Source: Verrucomicrobiota bacterium
GTDB lineage: Bacteria; Verrucomicrobiota; Verrucomicrobiia; CAIQCK01
Reading direction: 5' to 3'
Assembly (NCBI GenBank): GCA_016219905.1
Contig: JACRKA010000115.1
Coordinates: 1 to 34,842, forward strand
DNA length: 34,842 bases
In this document: positions 1 to 17,406 of the stretch, piece after piece
How the letters are laid out: the number at the start of each line of letters is the position of its first letter
Position numbering within the stretch: the first letter of the stretch is position 1
The notes under the pieces: model-generated
Database searches by the model: none
Told to the model about the DNA's origin: nothing
What the model saw: the letters and a program-made list of their open reading frames with translations, nothing else
Program-made: the position numbers and the translations under genes

Positions 1-2435
1 AAAGGCTGGCTGACCGGCTCGCCGGTCCGTGCATCCCAGACCCGCGCCGTGTGATCGTCCGACGCGGTGACCACGAGCGTCCCATCGGGGCTGAACGCAG
101 CCGAGTAAACCGGGCCGCTGTGCCGCAGGGGCGCGCCGACGGGGCGCCCTGTCGCCGCATCCCAAATCTGCGCGAAGCGGTCCCACGACGCCGTGACGAC
201 CTGGCGTCCGTCCGGGCTGAACTGGGCGGCATAAAGCGGCTGCGGATCTTTCAGCGGGCTGCCGATGGGCTGGCCGGTTGCCGCGTCCCAAATCCGCGCC
301 GTGTGGTCCCACGAACAAGTGACCACCCGTTTCCCGTCGCGGCTGAATCCAGCGTCAGCCACCGTGTCCTGATGGAGCATCAGTTCGCCGACCGGCCGGC
401 CACTCTCAGTATCCCAAACCCGCGCGCTGCGGTCGGCCGACGCGGTCACGATCCGCTTCCCATCAGCACTGAAATGGGCGCTCTTGACCTTGTCGCCGTG
501 AAGCATCGGTTTGCCGACTGGCCGGCCGGTTTCCCAATCCCAGACGCGGGCGGCACGGTCGTCGCACGCGGTGACGACGCGTCGGCCATCCGGACTGAAC
601 ACGGCGAAGTTGACCGCGTTGGTGTGGCACAAGGGCAGCCCCGCGGGCCGGCCGGTCGCCGCGTGCCAGACCCGGACCGTGTTGTCCGCCGATGCCGATA
701 CGATGCTCCGCCCATCGGGACTGAACTCGGCGGAATGAACCACGCCGTTGTGCCGCAGCGGGGAGCCGATCGGCTGGCGCGTGGCCACGTCCCAAATCCT
801 CACCGCCTCATCCCTGCAAGCCGTCACGATGCACCGTTCATCCGGGCTGAACGCGGCCCACCGGACCCCGCCTCCGTGCTGCAACGGCGGGCCGTCCTGT
901 TTGCACGTCTTCGCGTCCCAGAGACGCGCGGTCTTGTCGAGGGAACAGGTCAGCACATGCCGCCCGTCGAGACTGAACCGCGCGCCATTGACCACATCAT
1001 CGTGCTGCAACGGCTGGCCCTGAAGCTCGCCCGTCCCGGCGTCCCAGATGCGCGCGGCGAAATCCCAGCACGACGTGACGATGTAGCGCCCGTCATGGCT
1101 GTAGGCCGCATGGCGCACCTTCTTCGGGTGCGGCAACGGCCGGCCGACCTGCTGCCCCGTCTGCGCGTCCCAGATCCGGGCGGCGTTCTCGCCCCACGCC
1201 GCCGTCACCACGTGGCGCCCGTCGGGACTGAACGCCGCTCCATACACCGCGTCGGCATGTTCCAACGGCCGCCCCACTCGTTGGCTGGTCTGCGCGTCCC
1301 AAACCTGCGCCGTGTGGTCCGTGGACGCCGTCACCACGCGGTGCCCATCCGGGCTGAACGCGGCCGACCAGAGGCGGTTGCTGTGTTGCAGCGGGACGCC
1401 GACAGGCCGGCCGCTCGCCGCGTCCCAAATCCGCGCCGTGCCGTCAAACGACGCCGTCACGACCCAACGCCCGTCCGGGCTGAACGAGGCACAGGTAAAG
1501 TCATTGCTCTGGACGATGCTGGTTCGTTCCCGCGGAATCGTCTGCTGCCCGATGCACGACAAGCCCATCGTCGCGGCGACCTTGTTGTCGGGGTCCAGCC
1601 GCAACGCGTAGGCCAGTCGCGCGTAAGCTTCCCGGTTCTCGCCCAGGTCAATCAACTTGCAGGCCAGGCTGAACTCCGCCTGGCTGGCCGCCTTGCGCGC
1701 CCGCAGCTCGCTGGCGTCGGCCCGGAACCATTGCGACACCGCAAACGTGGCCAACCCCGCGAACGCCACCAGCAGCGAGGACACCGTCGCGAGCACGACC
1801 CGCTGCCGGTGGCGGCGGCGTTCGTCATCGCGGCGCTTCAGGTCGTCGTAATTGACGCCGAGCACCCCGGCCAGCAGCTTGAGCAGCGCGTTTTGCTTCC
1901 CGTCCTTGTCGGGCCGCGCATCGGCGGCAATCGGCTCCCGCTGCTGGGTCTTGTCCAACTGTCCATCCGGCCCCACAGGATGCTTGAGCGCCTCCGGGAA
2001 GCATTCCATCTCCGCCGTAAAACCGGGCTTGCCGTCGGACGCGTTGGGTTCACCGTCCACAATCAGCGCCAGGATGCGGCCTTCCCGGCCCAGCTTCTTG
2101 TATTCCAAAATCTCCTGGTTGGTCCAACGCGACTGCGCAGCGCGCGGCGAACAGATGGCGATCAAGTAGCGGGATTGCCGGAGCGCCTCGGCAATGACGG
2201 AGCCGAGGTCGGCGCTGGTGGGCAGTTCCTCGCGGTCGCGGAAAATCGGAAAGATTCTTCCCGGAACCGGCTCACCGTGCCGTGCTGCCTTGCCCACCAA
2301 GGTCTTGGGCACCTTGTAGGTCTCCAGCGCCTTGTGCAGCCAGTCGCCCCACTTCTTGTCCGCGTGGCTGTAGCTGATGAAGGCCCAATACTTGAACGCG
2401 CTTCCCGCCCCGGCTTGTTGGCCCCCGTCGGACAT
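1..2435 (-). CDS. TIR domain - transmembrane - WD40 repeat protein (3' end outside window)
   Basis: The frame is open from an ATG at 2435 to the window edge (811 codons), so the C-terminus is missing. Residues about 15-125 form a TIR domain: FISYSH at 19-24, the FRDREELPTS stretch near 65-74 and a candidate catalytic Glu108 in RWTNQE. A hydrophobic segment at about 211-233 looks like one membrane pass. From about 305 onward I count twelve WD40 repeats of about 42 residues, each ending in a version of ARIWDA, so the beta-propeller part probably continues past the edge. The start is supported by AAGGAG just upstream, and it lies 2 bases after the stop of the cyclase gene. Bacterial TIR domains are often NAD-consuming effectors and WD40 propellers are binding or sensing platforms. 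An effector role here is inferred from that and from the neighbouring nucleotide-signalling genes; a protein-scaffold role is equally possible. Confidence 0.9.
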   Translation of the reverse strand, partial: MSDGGQQAGAGSAFKYWAFISYSHADKKWGDWLHKALETYKVPKTLVGKAARHGEPVPGRIFPIFRDREELPTSADLGSVIAEALRQSRYLIAICSPRAAQSRWTNQEILEYKKLGREGRILALIVDGEPNASDGKPGFTAEMECFPEALKHPVGPDGQLDKTQQREPIAADARPDKDGKQNALLKLLAGVLGVNYDDLKRRDDERRRHRQRVVLATVSSLLVAFAGLATFAVSQWFRADASELRARKAASQAEFSLACKLIDLGENREAYARLAYALRLDPDNKVAATMGLSCIGQQTIPRERTSIVQSNDFTCASFSPDGRWVVTASFDGTARIWDAASGRPVGVPLQHSNRLWSAAFSPDGHRVVTASTDHTAQVWDAQTSQRVGRPLEHADAVYGAAFSPDGRHVVTAAWGENAARIWDAQTGQQVGRPLPHPKKVRHAAYSHDGRYIVTSCWDFAARIWDAGTGELQGQPLQHDDVVNGARFSLDGRHVLTCSLDKTARLWDAKTCKQDGPPLQHGGGVRWAAFSPDERCIVTACRDEAVRIWDVATRQPIGSPLRHNGVVHSAEFSPDGRSIVSASADNTVRVWHAATGRPAGLPLCHTNAVNFAVFSPDGRRVVTACDDRAARVWDWETGRPVGKPMLHGDKVKSAHFSADGKRIVTASADRSARVWDTESGRPVGELMLHQDTVADAGFSRDGKRVVTCSWDHTARIWDAATGQPIGSPLKDPQPLYAAQFSPDGRQVVTASWDRFAQIWDAATGRPVGAPLRHSGPVYSAAFSPDGTLVVTASDDHTARVWDARTGEPVSQP

Positions 2436-2437
2436 GG

Positions 2438-4543
2438 TCACTCCTTGCGCCGGCGAAGATGGTAGGTCGGCAGCATCCCGTAGCCTTTCGGCAACGGCGT
2501 TTGCCCGGCGTAATCACACGCGAAACCCGCCGCGCCTTCCGCCGCCGCCAGCGCCGCGAACGCCTGGCTCGCATATACCTCGCCGGGCGGCGCGATCGGC
2601 TCCATCCGTGCTGCGCGCGTCACGTGATTGCCCGTGAAGTTTGTCTGGCCGGCCACCGGGTCGCGGCACTCGTAAACCGGCCCGGCATGGAGCGCGATCC
2701 GCAGGCTCAACCCTGCCGGTAGCCCGTGCGCGGCCCAGTCCGTCTCTCCAACCAGCCCGGACAGGTCCAGCGCGAAAAGCCCCGCGTCGCTCACCGAATT
2801 GAACACGAAGTAGAGGCCGTCGCCCCACGTCGCCTTCAACACTGGCGCATCGGGCGACCGCGCAATCAGCCCGGCCACCGCGCCGAGGAAGTGACGGACG
2901 AATTTCGGGATCTCCGGCTCGCCCAGCTTGCTGAACCCGACCGCGTCCGCGAACAGCATCGCCATGATCCGCGCGCCGGATCGTTTCGCGCGTCCCGACG
3001 AGCGCGCGGCAGTCTTGCCGGACGCCACCGGGGCCATCGTCGTGCCGAGTTGTTCGGCGCGGATGGCCGCCAGCCCGCTCACCAACCGGCCCGCGTAGTC
3101 CTGTGCGATGTCGCCGATGGCCAGCTTGTGCTCCGAGGCCGTGACCACTTGCGCCGCGCGGTCGAGCGCCCGCTCCAGCCGCGCGGCCCACCGCGCGCCG
3201 TCAGCAGACGCCATCGCGTCGCGCAGGAAATCCTCCCGCCGATATGGCAGCACCACGCACAGCTCGTCGCCCCGCTCCAGCACCGCCTCCGCGAAGAGCA
3301 CGTTCAGGCCGCAGCCGGCCGTGACGTAGCCGAACCCGCACTGGAGTTGCTCGAGCTGCTCCTGCATGGCCCGCAAAGCCGCCCGCTCTGCATCCGCCCT
3401 CAACGGCCCGCCCGCGCCCGCTCCGGCAAAGGCCGCGACAGTCGGAATCCGCAGCCAGTTCTCGACGAGGCCACGATTCAGGCCCAGGCTCTCGACGATC
3501 AACTGCGCGTTCCGGCGCGTGGATTGCAGGTCGCCGTAACGGCCGTGGCTGGTCGCGAGGGCTTGCCCATACCAGTCCTCCGCCTCGGCGAGTTCGCGCC
3601 GGACCAACGCCGCTTCGCCCAGCGTCGCCAAGGTCCAATACGCGTCGCCGCCCGCGCCCTTCAGCCGCTCCAACTCCTGCACGCACTTGCCGCGCACTTC
3701 CAGCGCGAGCGCCGCGGCCTTGTCCCTGTCGCCGACCAGCAACGCCATCGTCGCCGCGTTGATGCCCGTCCAGTAATCGCCCGTGCCCTCGTAGGCCCGG
3801 CCATAAACCTCCGCCGCTTTGCCGAGATGCGCCTTGCGCGTTTTCTTGTCGGAGGCGGCCAGCCCCAAATCCTTGCAGGTGCGGGCCAGGATGCCGAGCG
3901 TCTCCGCGTCGCGATGGCCTTCCTTCTCCAGCTCGCGCAGGATCGCGTTGGCTTTTTCCGAGGCGCCGCTGCGGGCCAGCGCGAGCGCCTGGAGCTGGCG
4001 CAGCCGCGCGTCGCGCGTCGCGCTCTTCAAGCCCGCGGCGATGACATCGTAGGCGAGCAACGGCTCGCCGAGCCGCAGGATGCGGCCGCCCAACTGCGCA
4101 TAAACCTCCGGCGCGCCCGACCACACCTGCTCGTCGCGTGAGTGAAAGAGTTTGAGCAGTTCCACCAGCGTGAGCGACCGGGAGGTTTGAAGATGGCGGA
4201 GGACCCTCGTTGCCTGATTGTCCTCCGTCGTCAGCGGGCGGGGCGGCAGGACGGCCCGCCCCGGCGGCTGGAGGGTGAAGCCCAGGGCCAGGATGGCCCT
4301 GAGGGTCTCCATCGCGGTGTTGCGGTCGTATTGCTTCTCCGATTCCGACAGCGCCTCGTAGGGGATGAGGCTGGGATGTTCCTTCTTCTTGTCGTCACGC
4401 CGCGGGCCAAGCTTCCACCCCTCGGCCATGCGCAGCCGCGCCCAAGTCTCGTGCGCGTTGCGGGCCAGCAGTTCCGTGAGCCGGGCAACGGTGTCGTCCA
4501 AGGCGATCTTGGAAGTGTCTATGGGTTGCGGTTCGTAGGGCAT
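2438..4543 (-). CDS. RyR - TPR/DUF4071-like - SLOG-like - class III nucleotide cyclase fusion protein
   Basis: 701 residues, no signal peptide. Residues 15-95 match the prokaryotic RyR domain (NAHETWARLRMAEGW, HPSLIPYEALSESEKQYDR). Residues about 145-350 are helical TPR-like repeats of the DUF4071 (TRAFs-binding-like) type. Residues about 395-475 (FGYVTAGCGLNVLFAEA, LCVVLPYRREDF) resemble the Rossmann-like SLOG ligand-sensing fold. Residues 525-700 form a class III adenylate/guanylate cyclase domain with metal Asp533 (FADAVGF) and Asp575 (WGDG), Lys570 at the usual adenine-contact position and Arg646. The usual transition-state Asn is Thr642. The likely reaction is NTP to a cyclic nucleotide, switched by the sensor domains. 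The start at 4543 has GAGGGG upstream; earlier in-frame starts would run through the cyclic-nucleotide-binding gene. The product base and the triggering signal cannot be told from sequence. Confidence 0.88.
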   Translation of the reverse strand: MPYEPQPIDTSKIALDDTVARLTELLARNAHETWARLRMAEGWKLGPRRDDKKKEHPSLIPYEALSESEKQYDRNTAMETLRAILALGFTLQPPGRAVLPPRPLTTEDNQATRVLRHLQTSRSLTLVELLKLFHSRDEQVWSGAPEVYAQLGGRILRLGEPLLAYDVIAAGLKSATRDARLRQLQALALARSGASEKANAILRELEKEGHRDAETLGILARTCKDLGLAASDKKTRKAHLGKAAEVYGRAYEGTGDYWTGINAATMALLVGDRDKAAALALEVRGKCVQELERLKGAGGDAYWTLATLGEAALVRRELAEAEDWYGQALATSHGRYGDLQSTRRNAQLIVESLGLNRGLVENWLRIPTVAAFAGAGAGGPLRADAERAALRAMQEQLEQLQCGFGYVTAGCGLNVLFAEAVLERGDELCVVLPYRREDFLRDAMASADGARWAARLERALDRAAQVVTASEHKLAIGDIAQDYAGRLVSGLAAIRAEQLGTTMAPVASGKTAARSSGRAKRSGARIMAMLFADAVGFSKLGEPEIPKFVRHFLGAVAGLIARSPDAPVLKATWGDGLYFVFNSVSDAGLFALDLSGLVGETDWAAHGLPAGLSLRIALHAGPVYECRDPVAGQTNFTGNHVTRAARMEPIAPPGEVYASQAFAALAAAEGAAGFACDYAGQTPLPKGYGMLPTYHLRRRKE

Positions 4544-4616
4544 GGCCCCTCGTGTTCGGGCTGGCCGGCCAATCCGGCCGCGCCGAGTATAGGACAGCCC
4601 CGGCTTTGCTGCCACC

Positions 4617-5072
4617 TCAAGTCTGCGCGCTGCCGCGCGCGCGGGTCTCGGCGGCGACGAGGCGTTCGACGGCGGTGCGGAGCAACACCAGCGCGGCCTC
4701 GGGGAACCGGAGGAGGAACGACCGGAAGCGGGTGTAGTCGAGCGATACGAGCGCAGCGTCGGTCTCGGCTTTGAGGGTCGCGCTGCGGCCACGGTTCAGG
4801 AACATCCCATACTCGCCGATGATGTCGCCGGGGCCGAGCGTGCGCACGGGCTGTGTCTCGTCCGGCAGGAACACGGCCAGCCGGCCCTCGCCCACGACAT
4901 AGACCCGGTCGGAGGGGTCGCCCGCCTGGAAGAGTGTCTCGCCGGCGCGCAGCCGCTCGGTCTCCATCATCTCGGCGAGCAGCGCGCGGTCGGCGGGGGG
5001 AATGCCCGCGAAGAGCGGACAGGTGCTCAGGGTGCGCGTCCGCGCAGCGACGGTGAGGGCGGTGGTTTTCAT
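4617..5072 (-). CDS. Stand-alone cyclic-nucleotide-binding domain protein
   Basis: 151 residues of Crp/Fnr-type cyclic-nucleotide-binding (cNMP) domain and nothing else: no HTH and no membrane segment. The beta-roll runs over about 18-115 (CPLFAGIPPADRALLAEMM, DRVYVVGEGRLAVF). The phosphate-binding cassette at 86-100 keeps the two ligand-contact residues, Glu87 (GEYG) and Arg96 (RGRSATL), so binding of a cyclic nucleotide is credible. Its ATG overlaps the TGA of the ABC transporter gene by 4 bases (ATGA), which suggests translational coupling. The cyclase gene begins 73 bases downstream. The simplest reading is a receptor for the neighbouring cyclase's product, acting on the ABC protein or on the TIR protein. 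That link is inferred from position. It is not a transcription factor in the usual sense because a DNA-binding domain is missing. Confidence 0.9.
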   Translation of the reverse strand: MKTTALTVAARTRTLSTCPLFAGIPPADRALLAEMMETERLRAGETLFQAGDPSDRVYVVGEGRLAVFLPDETQPVRTLGPGDIIGEYGMFLNRGRSATLKAETDAALVSLDYTRFRSFLLRFPEAALVLLRTAVERLVAAETRARGSAQT

Positions 5073-7633
5073 GCGTGCTTGATCGTCCTGCGGAAGGTCT
5101 CCGAGGTCTGTTGGAGTTCCTTGAACGTGCCCGCGGCCACCAGCCGGCCGCCTTCAATCAGCCGGATCTCGTCGGCGGCCTGGATGAACTCCACGTCGTG
5201 GCTGACGGCGATGACGATGCGATCCTTCTTCCACTCTTGCAGCAGCACCGCCACGGCCGCGCGGCTGGCCGGGTCGAGCGCCGAGGTCGGTTCGTCAATC
5301 ACCAGCACGGGTGTGCGCCGCAGCAGCGCGCGGCAGAGGGCCACGAGCTGGCCCTGGCCGCCGGAGAGGTTGCCGCCGAGCCGGCCGATCTTGAACTCCA
5401 GCCCCAGTTGCGTGAACGCGTCCTTCAGGCCCTCTTGCTCGACGAAGTCCAGGACGGCCCGGTCCGCCAGCCGACTGCTGCGGCTGTTGCGGACGTCCAC
5501 GACGCCGAAGATGAGGTTCTCGCGCCACGTGAGGTGCGGATGCACGCGGTCGCTGGCAAACGGCAGGCACGCATCGCCGAGCATCTGCTTCAAGTGTTCC
5601 GCTTCCGCCGCGAAAAGATGCCTGCCATCGGGCTTGAGCAAAGCGGCTGTCTCTTTATCGTCGGCCAGCTCGACCGCTGAGGCTGTCAGCGCCACGATGC
5701 ACAGCGACAGCGCCTGGTCGGGTGACAGCGCGGTCTGCTGGAGGGCTTCCAAGTTCGACGAGCGCAGACGCCAGAGGCCCTCGTCGAGGGGATACGGGGA
5801 CAGTTGGCAATAGACGTGGTAGTTCGCGATGCCGAGGAGCTGGCGGTTTCCTTCGAGGAGTCCCCGCGCCAGCGCGACCAGCGCGCTGCCCAGCGGCGTC
5901 TGCGGCAGCGAGTGGAGTTTCCGCCGGCCCGCCTTGCCGAGCAACAAGGCCGCCACCCGCTCGCGGTCGCACCGGCCGGCGAGCAGGCTTTCCAGCACCC
6001 AATGCCCGCGGTCGGCGTGTCCTTCTTCGAGGGGCAGGACGACGACCTCGCAGGCCTCGCGCAGCCGTTCGCGCAGACGATGTCGCGCGGCGACGATGGC
6101 TTGCGCGATGGCCGCATGGCCGTCCGGCGTTCCCGGCGACATGTCGAGCGCCTTGAGGCGGCAGACGCGGCCCAAGCCGGTCCGCTCGATCACGCTCATG
6201 TCTTCCTCAGCCAGCGGCGCGCCTTCGGCGGCGGCCCCGTCGGCGGCGGGCCGGCCGAAGAAAAGGTTCTGGCGGATGCTCGCGTCGAGCAACGCGATGG
6301 ATTGCGGCATGAGGGAGAAGATCGCCGCGCGGTCGGTCCCCGTCATGGCGTCGAGCGGCGTCTGGCCGTAACGGGCGCTGCCGGCCTGCGGTTTCAACCG
6401 GCCGAGCAGGAGTTTCAGGAGCGTGGACTTGCCCGAGCCTGCGCCGCCGACGATGGCGGTCCATCGTCCGGGGGCGAAACTCGCGCTGACATCCACCACG
6501 CCGCCCTGCTGGGTTCCGTCGGGGCTGGTGTATCGGTAGGTCGCGCGCTCGATGTCAATCGCCACCGCCGGTTTCGCGGACGCGGCCGCCACGGGGCCGC
6601 CGCTCACGGTTTCCTGCGCCTCGTATTCGAGCAGGCGATTCATGCTGGCCCGCGCGATCTGGAACTCGAGCCGGAGGAAGACCAGTTCGGACGCGTCGCG
6701 GAACAACTCCGGCAATGCCCAGACCACGACGGGCACGAGCGCGAGGGCGGCGCTGGCGTTGGCGTTGGCGGCCTTGCGCATGTAAACGACGACGAGGATC
6801 ATCGCGATGAATGCGAGCAGGTAGGCGATGACGTTGGCGAGCCGCAGGCTGCTGTTCAGCCGGATATACTTCAAGAACGTCTCGCTCCTCCTGCCCAGCA
6901 GGCCCGTGAAGTGGTCCCGGATCTTCTGGTAGAGATGGCCCACCTGCACCTCCGGCGCGGCCCGCAGGAAATCCTCGAAGCGCGACTTGATGCGGTCATC
7001 CTGCTCCAGGTAATGCTCGTCCATCTCCTTCACCGGCCGCGTCGCGCGCATCGTCCAGAGCGCGCCGGCGACGCAGGCCACCACGCCCACGACGGCCAGG
7101 CGCCAATCCCGGATGAAGAAGAACGTGAGATTGCCGGCGAGCAGCAGCGCGCTCCACCAGACCTTCATGAGATTGGAGCGCCGGTCGCTGACGCGGTAGA
7201 GGTCCACGGCGAGCCGGTTGACCGTCTCTGCGGGCGAATGCCGGCTGAAGAACGAATCGTCCTTGTTCAGGAGGTTCAGCAGGATTTCCGTCTCCAGATC
7301 GTCCCGCGCCCGGATGCCGAGCCGGCCCGTGGCGAATGTCTTCCAATACTCCACAAAGCCCGAGACCAGCCGCACCGTGATGAAGGAGACCAACGCCAGC
7401 AGCGGCAGGCCGAGGTGGAATTGCTCCGCAAGTTTCGTCAACAACGCGGCCGCGCCCTCGCCGCCATGCTCCGATTTCTCGCCGCCGCCGAGCGACAGCG
7501 TCAGCAGGCCCAGCAGGTCGTTCTGCGCATACGTCAGGGCCGAGGCGAGCGTGCCGGCGACCATGAGTTCCGCGAGGCAGGCGCGGTAGCGCGAGTGCCA
7601 CATCGCAAACCAGGAATCGAGCCGTGATTTCAT
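5069..7633 (-). CDS. ABC exporter, fused membrane and ATPase domains, ATPase domain divided by a long insert
   Basis: 854 residues. Membrane segments spread over about 20-310 are followed by an ATPase domain with Walker A GGAGSGKST (396-404), Q-loop Gln444 (LMPQS), signature LSGGQ (756-760), Walker B LVIDEP (777-782) and switch His812. From Walker A to signature there are about 350 residues against about 100 in ordinary exporters. The extra stretch, roughly 461-700, ends in a second copy of a post-Q-loop motif (IRQNLFFG at 453-460, LTWRENLIFG at 701-710). It therefore looks like two merged ATPase halves or a duplication that gained an insert. The gene overlaps the upstream radical SAM gene and the downstream cyclic-nucleotide-binding gene by 4 bases each. 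I saw no N-terminal C39 peptidase domain, so it probably exports an already processed product. The cargo is unknown; the neighbouring peptide is the natural candidate. Confidence 0.92.
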   Translation of the reverse strand: MKSRLDSWFAMWHSRYRACLAELMVAGTLASALTYAQNDLLGLLTLSLGGGEKSEHGGEGAAALLTKLAEQFHLGLPLLALVSFITVRLVSGFVEYWKTFATGRLGIRARDDLETEILLNLLNKDDSFFSRHSPAETVNRLAVDLYRVSDRRSNLMKVWWSALLLAGNLTFFFIRDWRLAVVGVVACVAGALWTMRATRPVKEMDEHYLEQDDRIKSRFEDFLRAAPEVQVGHLYQKIRDHFTGLLGRRSETFLKYIRLNSSLRLANVIAYLLAFIAMILVVVYMRKAANANASAALALVPVVVWALPELFRDASELVFLRLEFQIARASMNRLLEYEAQETVSGGPVAAASAKPAVAIDIERATYRYTSPDGTQQGGVVDVSASFAPGRWTAIVGGAGSGKSTLLKLLLGRLKPQAGSARYGQTPLDAMTGTDRAAIFSLMPQSIALLDASIRQNLFFGRPAADGAAAEGAPLAEEDMSVIERTGLGRVCRLKALDMSPGTPDGHAAIAQAIVAARHRLRERLREACEVVVLPLEEGHADRGHWVLESLLAGRCDRERVAALLLGKAGRRKLHSLPQTPLGSALVALARGLLEGNRQLLGIANYHVYCQLSPYPLDEGLWRLRSSNLEALQQTALSPDQALSLCIVALTASAVELADDKETAALLKPDGRHLFAAEAEHLKQMLGDACLPFASDRVHPHLTWRENLIFGVVDVRNSRSSRLADRAVLDFVEQEGLKDAFTQLGLEFKIGRLGGNLSGGQGQLVALCRALLRRTPVLVIDEPTSALDPASRAAVAVLLQEWKKDRIVIAVSHDVEFIQAADEIRLIEGGRLVAAGTFKELQQTSETFRRTIKHA

Positions 7634-9030
7634 CCGACGAGCGCGGCCTCCCTGCCGGTCAGTTCAACCACCGCGGCGGCGCGGCGGCCATTGCGTTTGA
7701 CGTTGTGGGTCGCCCATTCGCGGATGCGGTCTTTGATTTCCTGGAGATGGCCCTCGCAATAACGCATCGCTTCAAATTGTCCCGGCTGGAACAGCCGGAT
7801 GTGGGGACAGCCGCCATCGCATTCCGGCAGGACCGGACACTGGATGCATCGCGGGTCCTGCAACCAGTCATAGACCAGCCACGGCACCAGGTTCGCGAGT
7901 TTCACCGGGCTGCCCGGCTCGATGGAGCCGTAGGCCCGTTCCGCCATGCCCACGTCTTCGGTGCATTTGAAAAGCCGGCCGTCCGGGCCGATCACCATGT
8001 TGAAGCGCGTGGTGGCGATGCAGCCCACCTGCGTCGGCCGGAAATCGGTCCCCACGGGCAGGCCCAATGCCCGCGCTTTCGGCCGTTCCCGCGCCACGAT
8101 CCGCGCATAGGCCGGGTAAGTCATCGCCGCAAAGCGCCCGCGCCCGCCACATTCCGGGTCGAACACATACGCGAAGAAGACCGTTTTCAGATGACGGTGC
8201 AGCCCGCGCCGGAGCAACTGGCCGTAAAGCGCATCGAACCCGGCCTTGTCATCGCGGACGACGTTGACGCGCAGATACACCGCCAGCCGCTGCGCGGCGA
8301 ACGCCAGGTTGTCCAACACCTGCTCTGCCGTCTCGCGGCCCTGCCGGTCGCGTTTCTCCGACGCGGGGATGTCCACCGTCACCTGCATGAACTTCAGCCG
8401 GCACTTGCGGAGCAAGCGGACGACATCCCGGCTCAACAGCATCCCGTTGCTGACGAGGACGGCCGAGTATTTCACGCCGGCCTGGTCGCACGCCGGGATC
8501 AGCCGCGCGCTGATGCGGGCGATGGCCTCGGCGGTCAGCAACGGCTCGCCGCCAAACCAACACATCTCCAAAGCCCGCTTGCCTCGCGCAGCCATGGCGA
8601 TGTGGCGGACGATCTCCTCCTCGCGGTCGCGCGTCAGCGTCTTGCCATGCCCGGCCGCTTGGACGCCGCTTTCAAAACAGTAGCGGCAGCTCAGGTTGCA
8701 GGCCAGCGTGGGCACGACGGTCACCCCCAACTTCCCGGCATCGAAACGCGCCGCCTGGTCGCGCAACCGGACCATATCGAGTTCATTGACTGCCTTGGAC
8801 ACCAACAAGCCCTTCGAGCACAGGAGGCTCAAGTCTTCGGAGGAAGTTTCGGGACGTGTCGGAATCGCGCAGCCCGCCTTCAGGTAACGACGCCATGTCG
8901 GGGCATTGACGACGACCAAGGAGCCGGTGAAGGTGTTGAACACCGCCTTGCGGCCGCGCGGAAGGTCCACCGCCATGTTGAACCGCGACGGAACCCATCC
9001 GTCCGCGGAAGATTCAAACCCCTTGCTCAT
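7630..9030 (-). CDS. Radical SAM/SPASM peptide maturase (copy 1)
   Basis: 466 residues from the ATG at 9030; a TTG at 9036 is an alternative start. The N-terminal ~95 residues (WVPSRFN, FNTFTGSLVVVN) resemble the lead-in of peptide-modifying SPASM enzymes. The radical SAM cluster motif CNLSCRYC gives Cys111, Cys115 and Cys118, followed by FGGEPLL. The C-terminus carries SPASM cysteines for auxiliary Fe-S clusters (VGCIATTRFN, FKCTED, CIQCPVLPECDGGCPH). Such enzymes use S-adenosylmethionine to install thioether, C-C or similar crosslinks in ribosomal peptides. The gene lies directly downstream of a small precursor-like gene and overlaps the ABC transporter gene by 4 bases. It is clearly paralogous to the enzyme at 12714-14153: the two align along their whole length, down to PSRFN, FNTFTG/HNTFTG and GGCPH. 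There is no convincing Shine-Dalgarno. Substrate assignment is inferred from position. Confidence 0.92.
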   Translation of the reverse strand: MSKGFESSADGWVPSRFNMAVDLPRGRKAVFNTFTGSLVVVNAPTWRRYLKAGCAIPTRPETSSEDLSLLCSKGLLVSKAVNELDMVRLRDQAARFDAGKLGVTVVPTLACNLSCRYCFESGVQAAGHGKTLTRDREEEIVRHIAMAARGKRALEMCWFGGEPLLTAEAIARISARLIPACDQAGVKYSAVLVSNGMLLSRDVVRLLRKCRLKFMQVTVDIPASEKRDRQGRETAEQVLDNLAFAAQRLAVYLRVNVVRDDKAGFDALYGQLLRRGLHRHLKTVFFAYVFDPECGGRGRFAAMTYPAYARIVARERPKARALGLPVGTDFRPTQVGCIATTRFNMVIGPDGRLFKCTEDVGMAERAYGSIEPGSPVKLANLVPWLVYDWLQDPRCIQCPVLPECDGGCPHIRLFQPGQFEAMRYCEGHLQEIKDRIREWATHNVKRNGRRAAAVVELTGREAALVG

Positions 9031-9110
9031 CGTCAATCTTGCAGCAACCCATCACCCCGCGCACCACCACGACAGCCATGCTCGGATCCGGCCCGGCCCA
9101 GCCTCATCAC

Positions 9111-9160: not shown

Positions 9161-9388
9161 TCAACCGCGCACGCCGCCAATCGCGCTCGGGCTGCAATAG
9201 CGATGCCCCCAGCACTGCCCCTCGACCTCATCGGTCCCGACGGCGCTCAGGACTTTGGCCACGTCCTTGATTGAAAGCTTCTTCTTGCCCTTCAGGACCG
9301 TTCCCTCAGGGAATACCAGTGTGACGCAGTTCGATCCGTCCGCGACAACCCGGACCGATGTTGTTTTTTTGATGGCTTTCTTGCTCAT
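9161..9388 (-). CDS. RiPP precursor-like peptide 1
   Basis: 75 residues: a lysine-rich N-terminus, a beta-like stretch (VTLVFPEGTVLKG), a helix-like stretch (LSIKDVAKVLSAV), then a cysteine-containing C-terminus. It shares 55 of the first 60 residues with the peptide at 14263-14499 and the last seven (AIGGVRG), but residues 61-68 (GHRYCSPS) replace an unrelated 11-residue stretch. A conserved leader with a diverged core is the hallmark of RiPP precursors. GAAGGAG lies upstream of the ATG at good distance, and a radical SAM/SPASM enzyme follows about 130 bases downstream on the same strand. Cys59 (GQCW) and Cys65 are candidate modification sites. Leader cleavage may fall near VEGQ. No family name is recognised; the RiPP role is inferred from pattern and context. 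Confidence 0.85.
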   Translation of the reverse strand: MSKKAIKKTTSVRVVADGSNCVTLVFPEGTVLKGKKKLSIKDVAKVLSAVGTDEVEGQCWGHRYCSPSAIGGVRG

Positions 9389-9629: not shown

Positions 9630-10370
9630 ATGAAGCGTTCTCCCAAACTGAAGCTGGACCCGAAAAACTACTTTCGCCTCTCCAACGGACTCCTGCTGGC
9701 TGCTCCGCCGGAAGTCCCCTTCCGGGACATGTTCTCCGAGGTCTTCGAATCCGGCTGCTACCGGCCTTCTGCTGAGTTCCGAATCAGGCCACGCGATACC
9801 GTGCTTGATGTGGGCGCGAACGTCGGACTGTTCTCGATCTGGGTGGCATCGAACGTCCCTTCGGCGCGCATCTTCGCGTTCGAGGCCGCGTCGGACAATT
9901 TCCGGGCGTTGGCCGGGAACATCCGGAGCAATCGGCTCAAAGGCATCTCGGTTCACCATTACGCGGTGTCGGATGGCAGCAGCAAGCATGTGACCCTCTA
10001 CCGCGGGTTCCACGGCGGGATTCATTCCATCCGGCCGGAATACCGGAATTGGGATTCCCCGGCGGGAAGGCCCCGCAGGACCGAGAGGGTCCGCGCGATC
10101 ACGCTGGAGCGGATCTTCTCCCGGTTCAGAATCAAGACGGTGGATTTCCTGAAACTCGATTGCGAAGGCGCCGAATACGACATCCTGCTTTCCACACCGG
10201 GCAGAACTCTCTCCCGGATCCGAAAGATCGTCGGGGAATACCACGACCTCAGCGCGAAGCGGCACGGGGGCGTGTTGAAAGAGTTCCTGACAAGAAACGG
10301 GTTTCGGACCGAGTTCAGGGCCGCGGGGCGGGACACGCCGTGGGGAATGTTCGTTGCGACTTTCCGCTGA
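9630..10370 (+). CDS. FkbM-family S-adenosylmethionine-dependent methyltransferase
   Basis: 246 residues, no signal peptide. The SAM-binding motif is VLDVGANVGLFSI (58-70), followed by an acidic strand end (FAFEA), and the family-typical VDFLKLDCEGAEYDILL lies in the second half. The C-terminus ends in a WGMFVATFR strand, so the domain appears complete. FkbM enzymes mostly O-methylate hydroxyl groups of natural products, sugars or lipids. The gene is divergent from precursor 1 and is followed 28 bases later by the unusual radical SAM gene, so the pair is probably one operon. A tailoring role on the local peptide is inferred from position only; a role in surface sugars would fit the family equally well. 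There is no clear Shine-Dalgarno. Confidence 0.85.
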   Translation: MKRSPKLKLDPKNYFRLSNGLLLAAPPEVPFRDMFSEVFESGCYRPSAEFRIRPRDTVLDVGANVGLFSIWVASNVPSARIFAFEAASDNFRALAGNIRSNRLKGISVHHYAVSDGSSKHVTLYRGFHGGIHSIRPEYRNWDSPAGRPRRTERVRAITLERIFSRFRIKTVDFLKLDCEGAEYDILLSTPGRTLSRIRKIVGEYHDLSAKRHGGVLKEFLTRNGFRTEFRAAGRDTPWGMFVATFR

Positions 10371-10398
10371 GCCGCCGCGCGTAAGCCCCCAAAAATCC

Positions 10399-12162
10399 AT
10401 GATCCAATCCATCGTATTGCCGGGCCGGTTTCCGACCACCTTCTACGCCTACCCGGAGTTCACGCTGCTCAACCGGAGGATTCAGGATAAGGTCCGGTTC
10501 GAGAACCTCAACCTGCTTTTCTGGGAGTATCTATTCTCCACGGACTTCCTCGGGTTTCTGCGGAAGCAACTTGGCAGGGCTGCATCCCCGCAGATCAAGT
10601 TCCTCTCGACCGTTGTGGACTCGGGCACCATCGCCACGCTCCGGGACCGGAAATGTTTCTACGACCCGGAGCGATACCTCTCCGCCATCTCCTGCCTCGG
10701 CGGATATTTGGCCGTGGCCTCCAACCTCTTGCGGCAATTCAGCGGCCGGAATCTGGAGGGACTCTCGGTTTACGGCCTGAGCTACGACATGCGGCGTCCC
10801 TTCGGGGAGGTCTTGGCCTACGCGCGGAGCGAACGGAGTCCGGTCATGGATTTCTACCGGACGCGCTCGAAGCTGATTCGAAAACTCTTCGCCACCGATA
10901 TCGTCAGCGCCGTGACCTACAGCTACACCGATATCCTGCACCTCGGCATCCTGTGCGACCGATATCGGCGGCCCGGCGCCACCGTGCTCATCCACGGCCA
11001 CAGTTGGGAGAACAACGCCATTGATTACCTGATCGAGCACAGCGGCCAGTATGCCGACCTGCTCCGGCAAATTGACGGGATCGTCATTGCGGAGGAGGGC
11101 TTGGCCGAGACGTTCAACCAGCTTGCTGAAACAGGAACGACGGCGGGGATTCAGAATCTGCACCGGTTCGGCGACGGGGCCGTATCCGGCGGCGGCAAGC
11201 AGAGTCGCCGACGCAACGCCGTTGATGACCTAAACTTCGCGCGCCTGCGCCAGGAGGCGGAGCGTCAACGCCCGAAGATATTCTCTCCTGAACTGGTGAC
11301 TCTGCACCGGCTCTCCTCGCGAGGTTGCTACTGGAGCCGGTGCGCCTTCTGCCGGCACAACAGCCGGCACAGCGGTCGAGCCAGCGATCCGGACGAGGAG
11401 CCAGAGAATCCGTCCCAGTGGACAGCCAGCCTGCGCCAGCTTTCGAAGATTTCCCCGGTCCTCGTCTTCTGCGACCAGGGGATTGACCCGGAAGCCGCGG
11501 CGGCGTTGGCCGCCTCGGCGCGCGACGCCGGCATCACGGCCAAGTGGTCGCTTCGGACGCGGATGGATCCGCGCTGGGATGCCCGGCGCATCGCGGCGGT
11601 GGCCCGCGGAGGGTGCGCTGAGCTGATCTTCGGCTTGGAATCCATCAACAACGCCACCCTGCGCCGGATGAACAAGACGCCACTGACCGGCAAGGCTTAC
11701 CGTTCACTGGCGGAGCAGATTCATCGCGATGCCGCGGCCCGCGGCATCTACAACCACTACTGCATGATCTACGGCTACCCGGGCGAGACGTATACAGAAT
11801 GCCGGCGAACCCTCAACTTCCTGGCGGACCTCATCCGCGACGTCCCCAAGACGACCTTCAGCTTGAACCGATTCCAGCTCCTCTATAAGTCGGACGTCTT
11901 CAACTCGCCAAGAACTTACGGCATGCGTTCAGTGACCAAGGCGCCGATGCTGTCCAACATGTTCTGGTATGACGAACCGAAGAGCCAGCGCAGCATCGAG
12001 CGGGTGGAGAACGGACTCGCCGGCTTCTATCGGGCCATAGGCTACCGCGAGGACATCGTTGCAAACCCGATACTCATGCAGACACTGCCGGGTTTCATCA
12101 ACGACAGCGGCCATGCGCCGTTGCTCAAGGCAGGTCATCGGGGAAATCCATTCATGGCGTGA
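10399..12162 (+). CDS. Radical SAM enzyme with cobalamin-domain-like N-terminus and CX4CX2C cluster
   Basis: 587 residues from the ATG at 10399. Residues about 165-245 (DIVSAVTYSYTDILHLGIL, ATVLIHGHSW, IDGIVIAEEGLAETF) follow the layout of the B12-binding Rossmann domain of class B radical SAM enzymes, though no DxHxxG motif is present. The radical SAM domain starts at SSRGCYWSRCAFC: Cys310, Cys315 and Cys318 are spaced CX4CX2C rather than CX3CX2C. It continues with WSLRTRMDP, LIFGLESIN and YGYPGET. The style recalls the RiPP maturation radical SAM proteins that carry a longer first cluster spacing (RGCWWG type). The likely chemistry is methylation or rearrangement at unactivated carbon. It follows the FkbM gene by 28 bases. 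The 3' neighbour is the convergent small gene at 12355-12525. The substrate is unknown. Confidence 0.85.
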   Translation: MIQSIVLPGRFPTTFYAYPEFTLLNRRIQDKVRFENLNLLFWEYLFSTDFLGFLRKQLGRAASPQIKFLSTVVDSGTIATLRDRKCFYDPERYLSAISCLGGYLAVASNLLRQFSGRNLEGLSVYGLSYDMRRPFGEVLAYARSERSPVMDFYRTRSKLIRKLFATDIVSAVTYSYTDILHLGILCDRYRRPGATVLIHGHSWENNAIDYLIEHSGQYADLLRQIDGIVIAEEGLAETFNQLAETGTTAGIQNLHRFGDGAVSGGGKQSRRRNAVDDLNFARLRQEAERQRPKIFSPELVTLHRLSSRGCYWSRCAFCRHNSRHSGRASDPDEEPENPSQWTASLRQLSKISPVLVFCDQGIDPEAAAALAASARDAGITAKWSLRTRMDPRWDARRIAAVARGGCAELIFGLESINNATLRRMNKTPLTGKAYRSLAEQIHRDAAARGIYNHYCMIYGYPGETYTECRRTLNFLADLIRDVPKTTFSLNRFQLLYKSDVFNSPRTYGMRSVTKAPMLSNMFWYDEPKSQRSIERVENGLAGFYRAIGYREDIVANPILMQTLPGFINDSGHAPLLKAGHRGNPFMA

Positions 12163-12604: not shown

Positions 12605-12713
12605 GAACTGAGCGACGCAGGGCCGGGTAACAGCGCGCTGCTTGCGAATAAATGCCGAGTGAAGTTCGCGAGTGGACAGTTTTGCGCGCTTGCAGATGGA
12701 CGGAGAAAACAAA

Positions 12714-14153
12714 ATGCGACAGAAAGAGACGCCCACCGCCGTTTTCGAGGTTGCAGGCAGGAATTCTGCGATCTCACTACCACCGCCTGCCACAATCTCA
12801 AAGGCACTTGAAGCGCTTGGGGAAACGTGGATTCCTTCCCGGTTCAATGTCACGACAGCGCTGCGGGGCAGCCGAAAGGCGATCCATAACACGTTCACTG
12901 GCGCGACGGCAGTTCTGAACCACCGTAGTTGGCAACGATACCTTCGGTCTGGTTTTGAATACCGTCTTTCTGGACAGCCAGTCCCGGAACAACTGCAGGC
13001 TCTTTACTCAAGAGGCTTCCTCGTATCGAAGGACGTGGATGAGGTTGAACTGGCTCGATTCCACTACCTCGCGTCACGTTTTGACAGGGACACTCTCAAC
13101 GTGACCATGCTTTGCACGTTGGCCTGCAATCTGTGTTGCGCCTACTGTTTCGAAGGTCAAGCACAAGCAGACCATCGCGGCACCACGATGTCCAAGGAGA
13201 CAGAGGAGGCGGTCGTTGCCCACCTGAGCAGAGCAGTTCGCGGCAAAAAGGGGCTGTCCATCTGGTGGTTCGGAGGAGAACCGCTTCTCACGATGGGGCC
13301 TATGGAAAGAATCAGCTCCCGACTCATCCGGATCTGCAAGAAAGGCGGCATTCATTATACCGCCATGATCGCAACCAACGGCACGTTGCTGACGCGCGAT
13401 GTCATAAAACAACTGCGCCGATGGAAGGTCGCATCTGCTCAAGTGACGCTGGACATTCCCAGAGCAGCGAAGCGGGATAAGCATGGCCGTGAGACTCAGG
13501 AGAAAGTATTGGACAACCTGTGCCTCGCCGCTGGGAAACTCAAGGTTCATCTCCGAATCAACCTATCAAAGGACAACGAAGCAGAGTTTGACCGATTGTA
13601 TCGCGGGCTGATCCGAAGAAAGCTTCACAAAACCTTGGATATGGTGATGGGTATTGCCCACGTCTTTGCGCCAGAGCGCGGCCGCCTTGGTTGCACAGTT
13701 TGTCCGGTTGGACACCAATCATACGTGCATGTCTTGGCGCGCGAGCACGCCAAGGCGGCAGCGTTGGGCCTGCCTCTCAGAGAATCTCTCGTGTCGTCGC
13801 CGGGCGGCGGTTGCTCGGCGACTCGCGAGTCGGCCGTGGTGATCGGTCCTGACGGACTATTGTATAAATGTGTCGAGGACGTTGGGCTGGCCAACCGTGC
13901 GTATGGCTCTGTGTTCCTTGAAGACTTTGTGAAGCCCGGCAATCTGCTTCCGTGGTTGACATACGATTGGTTCCAACACGCCATGTGCAAGGGCTGCCCT
14001 GTGTTGCCGCAATGCGCGGGTGGCTGTCCGCACAGGCGGCTGTTTCAATCTGGCAGTCTCAAGGATGAGGATTTCTGCTATTGGGACATGCGGGGCGATT
14101 TGGAGGACCGAATTCGTAAACACGCCCTCGAAAAGGAGGCGTCAGGGGTCTAA
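12714..14153 (+). CDS. Radical SAM/SPASM peptide maturase (copy 2)
   Basis: 479 residues from the ATG at 12714, chosen because GGAG stands 8 bases upstream; in-frame ATGs at 12672 and 12696 lack such a site. After a ~125-residue N-terminal part (WIPSRFN, HNTFTGATAVLN), the cluster motif CNLCCAYC gives Cys138, Cys142 and Cys145, followed by FGGEPLL. The SPASM region has GGGCSATRES, YKCVEDVG and CKGCPVLPQCAGGCPH. It is paralogous to the enzyme at 7630-9030 over the full length. It has an insertion with two extra cysteines (GCTVCPVG) where copy 1 has CGG. GC content is lower than in copy 1 (for example 31 of 60 over 13321-13380). It lies between the divergent precursor 3 and the convergent precursor 2, so either peptide may be its substrate. 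Confidence 0.92.
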   Translation: MRQKETPTAVFEVAGRNSAISLPPPATISKALEALGETWIPSRFNVTTALRGSRKAIHNTFTGATAVLNHRSWQRYLRSGFEYRLSGQPVPEQLQALYSRGFLVSKDVDEVELARFHYLASRFDRDTLNVTMLCTLACNLCCAYCFEGQAQADHRGTTMSKETEEAVVAHLSRAVRGKKGLSIWWFGGEPLLTMGPMERISSRLIRICKKGGIHYTAMIATNGTLLTRDVIKQLRRWKVASAQVTLDIPRAAKRDKHGRETQEKVLDNLCLAAGKLKVHLRINLSKDNEAEFDRLYRGLIRRKLHKTLDMVMGIAHVFAPERGRLGCTVCPVGHQSYVHVLAREHAKAAALGLPLRESLVSSPGGGCSATRESAVVIGPDGLLYKCVEDVGLANRAYGSVFLEDFVKPGNLLPWLTYDWFQHAMCKGCPVLPQCAGGCPHRRLFQSGSLKDEDFCYWDMRGDLEDRIRKHALEKEASGV

Positions 14154-14262: not shown

Positions 14263-14499
14263 TCAACCGCGCACGCCTCCAATCGCGGTTGGCGTGCGCA
14301 CAGATCCAGATCTATGTAGCCAGCACTGCCCCTCGACCTCATCGGTCGCCACGGCGCTCAAGACTTTGGCCACGTCCTTGACCGAAAGCTTCTTCTTGCC
14401 CTTCAGGACCGTTCCCTCGGGGAACACCAGCGTGACACGGTTTGATCCGTCCGCGACGACCTTGACCGACGTTGTTTTCTTGATGGTTTTCTTGCTCAT
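14263..14499 (-). CDS. RiPP precursor-like peptide 2
   Basis: 78 residues. The first 60 differ from precursor 1 at only five positions (A5T, R13K, C21R, I40V, G51A), and both end in AIGGVRG. Residues 61-71 are LHRSGSVRTPT instead of GHRYCSPS, so this copy has a single cysteine, Cys59 in GQCW. It follows the radical SAM/SPASM gene at 14598-15878 by 98 bases on the same strand, whereas precursor 1 precedes its enzyme. GGAAGGA stands about 14 bases upstream of the ATG and a second AAGGAA is immediately adjacent to it. The gene looks like a duplicate of precursor 1 with a new core. It could be made by either the adjacent enzyme or by copy 2 at 12714-14153. Function inferred. Confidence 0.85.
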   Translation of the reverse strand: MSKKTIKKTTSVKVVADGSNRVTLVFPEGTVLKGKKKLSVKDVAKVLSAVATDEVEGQCWLHRSGSVRTPTAIGGVRG

Positions 14500-15952: not shown

Positions 15953-16618
15953 ATGGCGAAGTCAAATCCAGTCCTTGACGCGTATCTGGGCATCTCCTCC
16001 AAGACCCCGGAAGAAGCCGTGCTCCGCCTGCTCATCGAGGTGGGCGCGCAATTCGTTGGCGCCGAGGAAGGGTCGCTCCTTGTCTTCGACGAGAGGAAGA
16101 AAGACTTGGTCTTCGCCATGACCATCGGCAGCGCGGCGTCGGAGAAGACCCTGGTCGGCCAGCGCGTCCCCATAGGCAAGGGCATCACGGGACTCGCCGC
16201 GCAGACCCGCGAGGTCCAGATCGGCGCGCCCACTTTCGGCACCCGCCAGGCAAAACGCCGCGGCGCCAAGGCTGAGCCTCCCAAGTCGGTCCTCGCCGCG
16301 CCCATGCTGATCGGCGACCGGCTCGTCGGCGTGCTGACGGCGGTGAGTTTCCGGCCGGGGAAACTGTTCAGCAGCGACGACGCCCTGCTCTACGCGCGCG
16401 TGGCGGCGGTCGCCGGCGTCGTCGTGGAGCAATCCCGGCGGCTCGCGGCCGTGGAGGCTGCCCGGAAAGATGCCCGCCGCCCCCGTGCCGTCAGCGAGGA
16501 GGAACGCTGCGAACAGCAACTGGTGGACGCCGTCGCCCGTCTCGCCCGGAGCCGGCCGCAGGCGAAAGCCCGCATCGCGCGCCTGCTTTCCGACATCGCC
16601 GGGTTGGTGGCGGAATGA
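15953..16618 (+). CDS. GAF domain protein
   Basis: 221 residues, no membrane segment. Residues about 18-150 form a GAF domain (LLIEVGAQFVGAEEGSLLVFD, VPIGKGITGLAAQ, SVLAAPMLIGDRLVGVLTAV). The C-terminal ~60 residues are charged and helical without a recognisable output domain. GAF domains bind small ligands, often cyclic nucleotides, so it is a candidate receptor in a window with two cyclase-type proteins; the ligand cannot be read from the sequence. It is first in a three-gene operon, with the subtilase gene beginning 20 bases after its stop. GAGG lies about 5 bases before the ATG, and the gene is divergent from the radical SAM enzyme. Confidence 0.85.
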   Translation: MAKSNPVLDAYLGISSKTPEEAVLRLLIEVGAQFVGAEEGSLLVFDERKKDLVFAMTIGSAASEKTLVGQRVPIGKGITGLAAQTREVQIGAPTFGTRQAKRRGAKAEPPKSVLAAPMLIGDRLVGVLTAVSFRPGKLFSSDDALLYARVAAVAGVVVEQSRRLAAVEAARKDARRPRAVSEEERCEQQLVDAVARLARSRPQAKARIARLLSDIAGLVAE

Positions 16619-16638: not shown

Positions 16639-17406
16639 ATGAGCCTCCGAGCCGCACTCAAAGTCAATCTGCAGAAACTACGCTCCAAGAAACTGCGCCC
16701 CGTCACCGTGGCGGTGGTGGACAGTGGCGTGGACGCGAAACATCGGGAGCTGGCGGGGCGCGTGGTTCGCGCCGTGCGAGTGGAGAGCAGCGCGAAAGGG
16801 GATCGAATCTTCAGGAGCGCGGTCCCGCGGAACGCCGACGTCTATGGCCACGGCACCGCCGTGGCCAGCATCATTACGCAGATCGCGCCCAACGCGCGCA
16901 TCATGGACGTGCGTGTCCTTGACGCCAACAACGTCTGCACCGGCGAGACCCTGATCGCCGGCTTCCGTCACGCCATCGAGTCCGGCGCGCGGATCATCAA
17001 CATGAGCCTGGCCGCGAGCGCCAAATTCGCCGAGCCGCTGCACGAGCTTTGCCAGACCGCGTATCGGCAGAACCAGATCGTCGTCGCGTCGAGACGCAAC
17101 GTGCCGCTGACCGACGATGGTTTCCCTGCGGAGATCGCCACCTGCATCGGCGTGGACATCGGGAAGTTTCCCTCCCCGTTTCAACTGCTCTTTGCCGAAG
17201 ACCACGTCATCGAGTTCGTGGCCCACGGCGACCAGGTGGTCGTCGCCGCGCCGGGCGGCGGCCGGACGACCGTCACCGGCACCAGCTTCGCCACGCCCGC
17301 CGTCGCCGGATTGTGCGCGTTGCTGGTCGGCGCCAACCCCGACCTGCGTCCGTTTGACCTGAAGAGCCTGCTTCGGGCCTTCTCGACCAATTGCGCCGCG
17401 CGATGA
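16639..17406 (+). CDS. Small cytoplasmic subtilisin-like (S8) serine peptidase
   Basis: 255 residues that are almost only the catalytic domain. The triad is Asp28 (VAVVDSG), His71 (YGHGTAVAS) and Ser216 (GTSFATP). Asn154 (VVASRRN) sits where the oxyanion-hole Asn is expected, though the usual AAGN context is altered. No signal peptide or inhibitor propeptide is seen, so it probably acts inside the cell. Compact S8 peptidases of this kind are used in several RiPP pathways to remove leaders. Placed in a cluster with three precursor-like genes and no C39 peptidase, it is the best candidate for leader removal. Its stop overlaps the ATG of the following membrane protein by 4 bases. A general quality-control or regulatory protease role is the alternative. 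Confidence 0.88.
   Translation: MSLRAALKVNLQKLRSKKLRPVTVAVVDSGVDAKHRELAGRVVRAVRVESSAKGDRIFRSAVPRNADVYGHGTAVASIITQIAPNARIMDVRVLDANNVCTGETLIAGFRHAIESGARIINMSLAASAKFAEPLHELCQTAYRQNQIVVASRRNVPLTDDGFPAEIATCIGVDIGKFPSPFQLLFAEDHVIEFVAHGDQVVVAAPGGGRTTVTGTSFATPAVAGLCALLVGANPDLRPFDLKSLLRAFSTNCAAR

Follow-up and report, generated by a model that had tools for sequence, protein, structure and literature searches.

The gene P0001, on the minus strand of the window (the whole stretch of 34,842 nucleotides analyzed here, from a Verrucomicrobiota bacterium), encodes a protein in which a RyR domain, a TPR-S scaffold, a SLOG-fold domain and a class III nucleotide cyclase domain are joined, an architecture that is real, widespread and coherent. 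We tentatively propose, at somewhat less than an even chance, that P0001 acts as the relay enzyme in a signaling system of the conflict type that is linked to TIR. A TIR-TM-WD40 partner would sense the trigger, probably via its beta-propeller, and would use NAD+ to produce an ADP-ribose-type signal. The RyR domain, together with the ASK1-like TPR-S scaffold, would bind this signal and switch on the cyclase, whose active site would be formed as a homodimer, and the cyclic mononucleotide would act on separate receptors, namely the adjacent CNB protein and possibly a GAF protein paired with an S8 protease. The observations behind the proposal are the folds, the active-site residues, the conservation of the RyR ligand residues, the adjacency of the genes and the enrichment of TIR genes; from them we infer the direction from TIR to cyclase, the binding of the ligand, the product, its binding by receptors and any role in phage defense. 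The complete two-messenger chain, in which a TIR-made ADP-ribose signal passes through RyR/TPR-S to a second, possibly pyrimidine, cyclic nucleotide and on to CNB/GAF outputs that include the S8 protease, is a possibility we hold to be doubtful. The features of P0001 are as follows.

2438..4543, minus strand: P0001, RyR / TPR-S / SLOG / class III cyclase gene, 701 aa (ORF, Pfam, AlphaFold2)
4268..4537, minus strand: RyR domain, residues 3-92, with His31/Trp34/His56/Asp73 (Pfam and RyDEP spacing)
3455..4216, minus strand: scaffold resembling TPR-S and the ASK1 central regulatory region, residues 110-363 (Pfam; 5ulm, Z 22.1)
3020..3451, minus strand: predicted SLOG-fold domain with degenerate motifs, residues 365-508 (structure of the segment folded alone)
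2444..2977, minus strand: class III nucleotide cyclase domain, residues 523-700 (Pfam, Rv1264 alignment, structure match)
2819..2833, minus strand: base-pocket motif A571-T-W573-G-D575, NTWGD in the family (Rv1264 and family alignment)
2618..2620, minus strand: Thr642, in the column of the transition-state Asn (Rv1264 and family alignment)
2606..2608, minus strand: Arg646, the transition-state Arg (Rv1264 and family alignment)

The ORF runs from an ATG at 4543 to a stop at 2440-2438. Counted from the ATG, the RyR match already starts at residue 3, and a longer reading from the GTG at 4792 would run into the upstream gene, which makes that start unlikely. Pfam detects RyR at residues 3-92 (E 1e-32), TPR-S at 171-266 (E 5e-21), MAP3K_TRAF_bd at 176-319 (E 6e-8) and Guanylate_cyc at 528-696 (E 4e-5). 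The AlphaFold2 model, computed with 71 aligned sequences as input, has a mean pLDDT of 91.8 and a pTM of 0.83. In structure searches with this model, residues 110-403 resemble the ASK1 central regulatory region (5ulm, Z 22.1) and residues 520-701 resemble class III cyclases (Z about 22). A PDB sequence search with the whole of P0001 returned a list filled by ryanodine receptors, and the domains were therefore searched separately. Pfam, the predicted model and the structure matches thus agree with an earlier note on this DNA, which had joined RyR, TPR, SLOG and cyclase domains in one protein. The note had also called the protein soluble; no strongly hydrophobic stretch stands out in P0001, which is thus probably soluble. 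No tRNA or Rfam RNA was found within the window.

The gene that follows the cyclase is the proposed source of the signal.

1..2435, minus strand: TIR-TM-WD40 gene P0005, truncated by the contig end, with Glu108 (Pfam, TM scan, alignment)

P0005 begins 2 nt past the cyclase stop. Its product combines a TIR domain, with matches to TIR_2 and ThsB_TIR, a single TM segment and a set of WD40 repeats; in an alignment with the TIR domain of flax L6, Glu108 falls on the L6 glutamate, which is the catalytic Glu. When about 85,000 species genomes were scanned, 80 related loci were found in many phyla, and TIR genes recur beside them. They were found by profile, the hits being inspected by eye and partly checked with Pfam, and they lie within about 10 kb of 13 of the 21 RyR-cyclase loci against 0.32 expected (P 2e-20), where the expectation is taken from genome-wide TIR totals under a model of random placement, so that clustering in defense islands could inflate the significance. 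With close relatives removed, the count is 10/16. RyR-less relatives have a TIR gene within the same distance at 19 of 37 loci, against 0.77 expected. Two points here weigh against the relay: the enrichment could partly reflect shared defense islands, and the equal enrichment of the RyR-less relatives means that RyR is not required for the link to TIR, a part in which TPR-S could substitute for it. However, the operon-like spacing of 2-45 nt between cyclase and TIR genes, found in several phyla (the window and loci L028, L030, L040, L046, L047 and L072), argues for a direct link beyond shared defense islands. The genomes of L028, L050 and L104 each contain a single TIR_2 match, and it is situated at the cyclase locus. 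The C-terminal parts of the TIR neighbors vary (WD40, TPR, BioY-like). At L108 (10411-13797) a STAND-TPR protein lies beside a split RyR/cyclase pair, and its N-terminus is DUF4062-like by eye; DUF4062 is a TIR-like NADase family (PMC13174449).

The main rival to the relay is a Pycsar-like reverse order, in which the cyclase senses and its cyclic nucleotide activates the TIR protein, directly or via the CNB protein, the TIR then depleting NAD+. Cyclase, TIR and CNB together make up the parts list of a Pycsar system with PycTIR, the TIR gene is immediately downstream of the cyclase, the window's CNB protein (P0002) matches the CNB part of the PADLOC PycTIR models, and a PycTM gene occurs near a related cyclase in Priestia. 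On that Priestia plasmid, the informative one among five partial plasmid matches, PycTM, two proteins of no assigned function, a cyclase-TPR-S protein and RyR are encoded in one direction with a TIR gene nearby, and the cyclase shares the NTWGD motif. PycTM genes are present in only 4/50 family genomes, none shown beside the cyclase, with Priestia the single case; a search around PycTM genes found no cyclase neighbors, and no PycTM was found in the genome assembly of the window. The PADLOC PycC model matches neither P0001 nor its cyclase domain alone. It matches 16 of 30 relatives weakly, and since it also matches other, ordinary class III cyclases in many genomes, we rejected its hits as evidence of Pycsar membership. 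We favor the order from TIR to cyclase because no CNB domain was found in the TIR-WD40 protein and because the cyclase carries RyR, a type of domain for which binding of TIR products has been demonstrated in other proteins. We hold the reverse order to be unlikely.

Viral contigs contained no relative of the whole protein, and phage records gave only short RyR matches, in two unannotated records. In an Okeania genome (L100, 9338-12886) another ORF interrupts the RyR-cyclase gene; this ORF, of which Okeania has a homolog at a different place, may be a mobile element.

Candidate receptors for the cyclase product, and genes whose link to it is less direct, are found on the upstream side and farther along the window.

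4586..4615, minus strand: sigma-70-like site GTGGCA-18-TATACT, just upstream of the cyclase (promoter scan)
4617..5072, minus strand: single-domain CNB protein P0002 (intact phosphate-binding cassette GE...RSAT)
5069..7633, minus strand: ABC exporter P0003 with a long insertion in its ATPase domain (61% ortholog beside a Methylomirabilota cyclase)
7630..9036, minus strand: radical SAM/SPASM RiPP-maturase-like gene upstream of the ABC gene, its link to the cyclase uncertain
9161..9388, minus strand: 75-aa candidate RiPP precursor peptide, its link to the cyclase uncertain
15953..16618, plus strand: GAF-domain protein (family cyclase nearby in all four lineages seen)
16639..17406, plus strand: S8 (subtilisin-like) peptidase, partner of the GAF gene (triad motifs intact)

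The CNB and GAF families include known cyclic-nucleotide receptors, and the two proteins are natural candidates to read the cyclase product. In one Methylomirabilota MAG an exporter 61% identical to P0003 lies beside a RyR-cyclase, followed by homologs of the CNB, GAF and S8 genes of the window. At a cut-off of E 1e-60, neither 386 other host-phylum genomes nor 94 other Methylomirabilota genomes contain the P0003 exporter. The GAF protein was found in 2/288 host-phylum genomes, both with the cyclase and the S8 gene, and it also adjoins the cyclase in a Desulfovibrio MAG. Because the exporter and the GAF protein are rare yet recur with the cyclase across phyla, the cyclase/ABC/CNB/GAF/S8 set suggests a mobile cassette. 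An insertion of about 180 residues, to which no function was assigned, divides the ATPase domain of P0003.

The same neighborhood admits a physiological reading, in which the cyclic nucleotide acts via CNB to control the ABC exporter and the RiPP-like genes, and the TIR gene is a separate defense neighbor. The radical SAM, ABC and CNB genes overlap one another by 4 nt, and the cyclase is the next gene on that strand; cyclase, ABC and CNB genes occur together again in Methylomirabilota, and P0002 weakly matches TIGR03896, a bacteriocin-transport-associated CNB family. In contrast, most family members occur without the ABC/CNB pair and many with TIR, the Methylomirabilota locus gave no radical SAM or peptide match, and between the cyclase and the CNB gene there is a promoter-like site, the only one of its kind in 9.7 kb, where chance would give 0.6. 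We regard this reading as improbable. That the CNB protein of the window may serve the ABC/RiPP genes instead of the cyclase counts against the relay, as do the small number of CNB neighbors (6 of about 80 family loci), the scarcity of PycTM genes and the degenerate SLOG domain. The candidate precursor peptide has a second copy at 14263-14499 on the minus strand (78 aa, 87% identical), and both peptides have a radical SAM/SPASM gene close by, the two genes (7630-9036, minus strand; 12672-14153, plus strand) belonging to one family. Together they form a duplicated RiPP-like unit, and the rest of the genome showed no further copy. A B12-type radical SAM protein (10354-12162, plus strand) and a PapB-like radical SAM/SPASM protein (14598-15878, minus strand) are also encoded.

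The RyR domain is the proposed receptor of the TIR-made signal. The phage RyR enzyme RyDEP both binds the cADPR made by TIR proteins and cleaves it (PMC13232231, a 2026 preprint); its ADP-ribose-contacting residues are H75, W78, H100 and D117, of which H75 and D117 are catalytic, and 6/8 phage RyR homologs tested bound 2'/3'cADPR (PMC13232231). In P0001, which matches Pfam PF02026, all four ligand residues are present as H31, W34, H56 and D73 with identical spacing (+3, +25, +42), and the H, W, H, D set is conserved in nearly all RyR-cyclases. RyR and the cyclase are encoded by separate, adjacent genes at L028/L064 and in Priestia, which supports functional coupling of the two. Since both catalytic RyDEP residues are retained as H31 and D73, the domain could, instead of switching the cyclase, weaken the TIR signal by removing cADPR as a glycosidase or a sponge; we consider this very unlikely, as the RyR-cyclase fusion across several phyla favors sensing and most RyDEP homologs tested bound without cleaving (PMC13232231). 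Two phage records, the human-gut phage contigs MT836850.1 and MT837259.1, contain RyR ORFs 48-54% identical to the RyR of P0001, which are candidate RyDEP-type proteins.

Behind RyR, the scaffold resembles the central regulatory region of ASK1. TPR-S is described by its authors, reportedly, as a predicted sensor of NAD-derived signals, and the Aravind papers of 2015 and 2020 are said to define the SLOG/RyR networks and TPR-S. The front end of P0001 looks built to read NAD-derived TIR messages.

No Pfam family or PDB sequence was found for the SLOG segment, and its fold is identified by structure alone. When residues 358-510 were folded alone, the model (pLDDT 90.2) matched YpsA with a Z of 12.2 over 127 residues, DprA with 8.1 and LOG with 6.8, so that the structure prediction proposed in the earlier note as a check gives a predicted SLOG fold. 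Most relatives retain some form of the motifs GHMxDxPxRxxPRFP and WDG...GGT; P0001 and L040, a relative 78% identical to it, have lost both, and their SLOG domain may have turned structural. With the SLOG domain of P0001 degenerate, the term "multi-sensor" of the earlier note may overstate it.

The residue register of the cyclase domain was fixed by alignment with Rv1264. Both metal Asp residues (Asp533 and Asp575, the second metal Asp) and the class III catalytic fold are present, as is the transition-state Arg646, which bears out what had been claimed for these residues. In the alignment of 71 family members, the two metal Asp columns are conserved in 69 and 68 and the Arg646 column in 68. 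The adenine-selecting Lys of Rv1264 corresponds to Ala571 and its partner Asp to Asn635, so the canonical adenylyl cyclase pair is absent; Lys570, which the earlier note had listed as retained, is off by one. The column of the transition-state Asn holds Thr642 in P0001. This is a family trait and not the peculiarity of one protein that the earlier note had made of it, because the position is occupied by Ser in 40, Asn in 15 and Thr in 11 of the 71 relatives, so that Ser, Thr and Asn swap across the family. The replacement of Asn by Ser or Thr may slow catalysis. Position 571 is Asn in 47 and Glu in 18 members, and position 573 is Trp in 55. Relative to the metal Asps, the family base pocket has Phe at D1-2, Asn/Ala at D2-4, Trp at D2-2 and Tyr/Phe at D2+3; characterized PycC enzymes contact the base at D1-2, D2-4, D2-2, D2+1 or D2+3 (PMC11224242, the offsets being deduced from its residue numbers). 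As aligned, the pocket as a whole departs from that of canonical adenylyl cyclases. A motif control on short PycC-hit loci contained few usable canonical cyclases, with K..GD..M and Asn. The product is best left among cAMP, cGMP and a pyrimidine cyclic nucleotide, as had been suggested; a pyrimidine product is a reasonable guess, because the pocket is without the purine-selecting Lys/Asp pair and the same NTWGD occurs in the cyclase near PycTM. That the domain is catalytically dead or merely nucleotide-binding, with P0001 a scaffold, is the least probable reading, since against the replacement of two canonical residues (Thr642, Ala571) and the loss of the metal Asps in three relatives stand the metal Asps kept in nearly all members, Arg646 in 68, and an Asn/Ser/Thr interchange that fits tuned rather than abolished activity. 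Those three relatives (L031, L032 and L091, at least one from Opitutaceae) retain the rest of the protein and are probably dead cyclases. Another class III cyclase-like protein of the window carries TPR repeats (17908-18990, minus strand), the only part of it that Pfam detects; it keeps Asp, Asp, Asn and Arg and has Glu in the Lys column.

The link to nucleotide-based conflict signaling that the earlier note had drawn is strengthened by the TIR partners across phyla, the RyDEP residues, the CNB/GAF/S8 neighbors and the PycTM neighbor in Priestia. TIR genes beside relatives in many phyla suggest a little-explored two-step alarm that passes from one messenger to another. If the relay is true, RyR would be a host-side receptor for TIR signals, and NAD-derived and cyclic-nucleotide immune signaling would be joined in one pathway. 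The literature searched gave no receptor role for bacterial RyR and no biochemistry on any family member; the RyR-TPR-S-cyclase, with its TIR neighbors in many phyla, is a direct candidate for such a role. The ASK1-like scaffold bears on the origin of the animal ASK signalosome.

When compared with known systems, P0001 shares with Rv1264-type class III adenylyl cyclases the catalytic fold, the metal Asps and the transition-state Arg, and differs from them in having Ala571/Asn635 for the Lys/Asp base-selecting pair and Thr642 for Asn. With RyDEP it shares the RyR fold and the H/W/H/D ligand residues at identical spacing; RyDEP, however, is a phage counter-defense enzyme or sponge, whereas the RyR of P0001 is fused to a bacterial cyclase (PMC13232231). 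As in Thoeris, a TIR protein lies beside a protein with a predicted ADP-ribose-binding domain, but the predicted receptor here is a nucleotide cyclase and not a known Thoeris effector, and its output would be a second messenger. Pycsar has the class III cyclase, TIR and CNB components in common with the window, one relative lies near a PycTM gene, and the aromatic residue at D2+3 corresponds to F109 of AnPycC (clade D). In contrast to Pycsar, the cyclase is multi-domain (RyR, TPR-S, SLOG), TIR is carried on a TM-WD40 protein and CNB is a separate gene, so that neither an adjacent PycTIR (a CNB-TIR fusion) nor an adjacent PycTM effector was found. Because the defining adjacent effector types are absent and PADLOC gives no PycC hit for P0001, we file the system as a variant of nucleotide-based conflict signaling and not as a member of Pycsar or Thoeris. 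Cyclases fused to VMAP/vWA have been described in conflict systems (PMC7159879); RyR and TPR-S are not mentioned in that paper, and an earlier description of the exact architecture of P0001 is possible. P0001 resembles the cNMP-cyclase/TPR-S conflict systems described by Aravind and co-workers (TPR-S is Pfam PF20308), which are of the threshold type, in its TPR-S scaffold, cNMP cyclase and SLOG/TIR-type domains.
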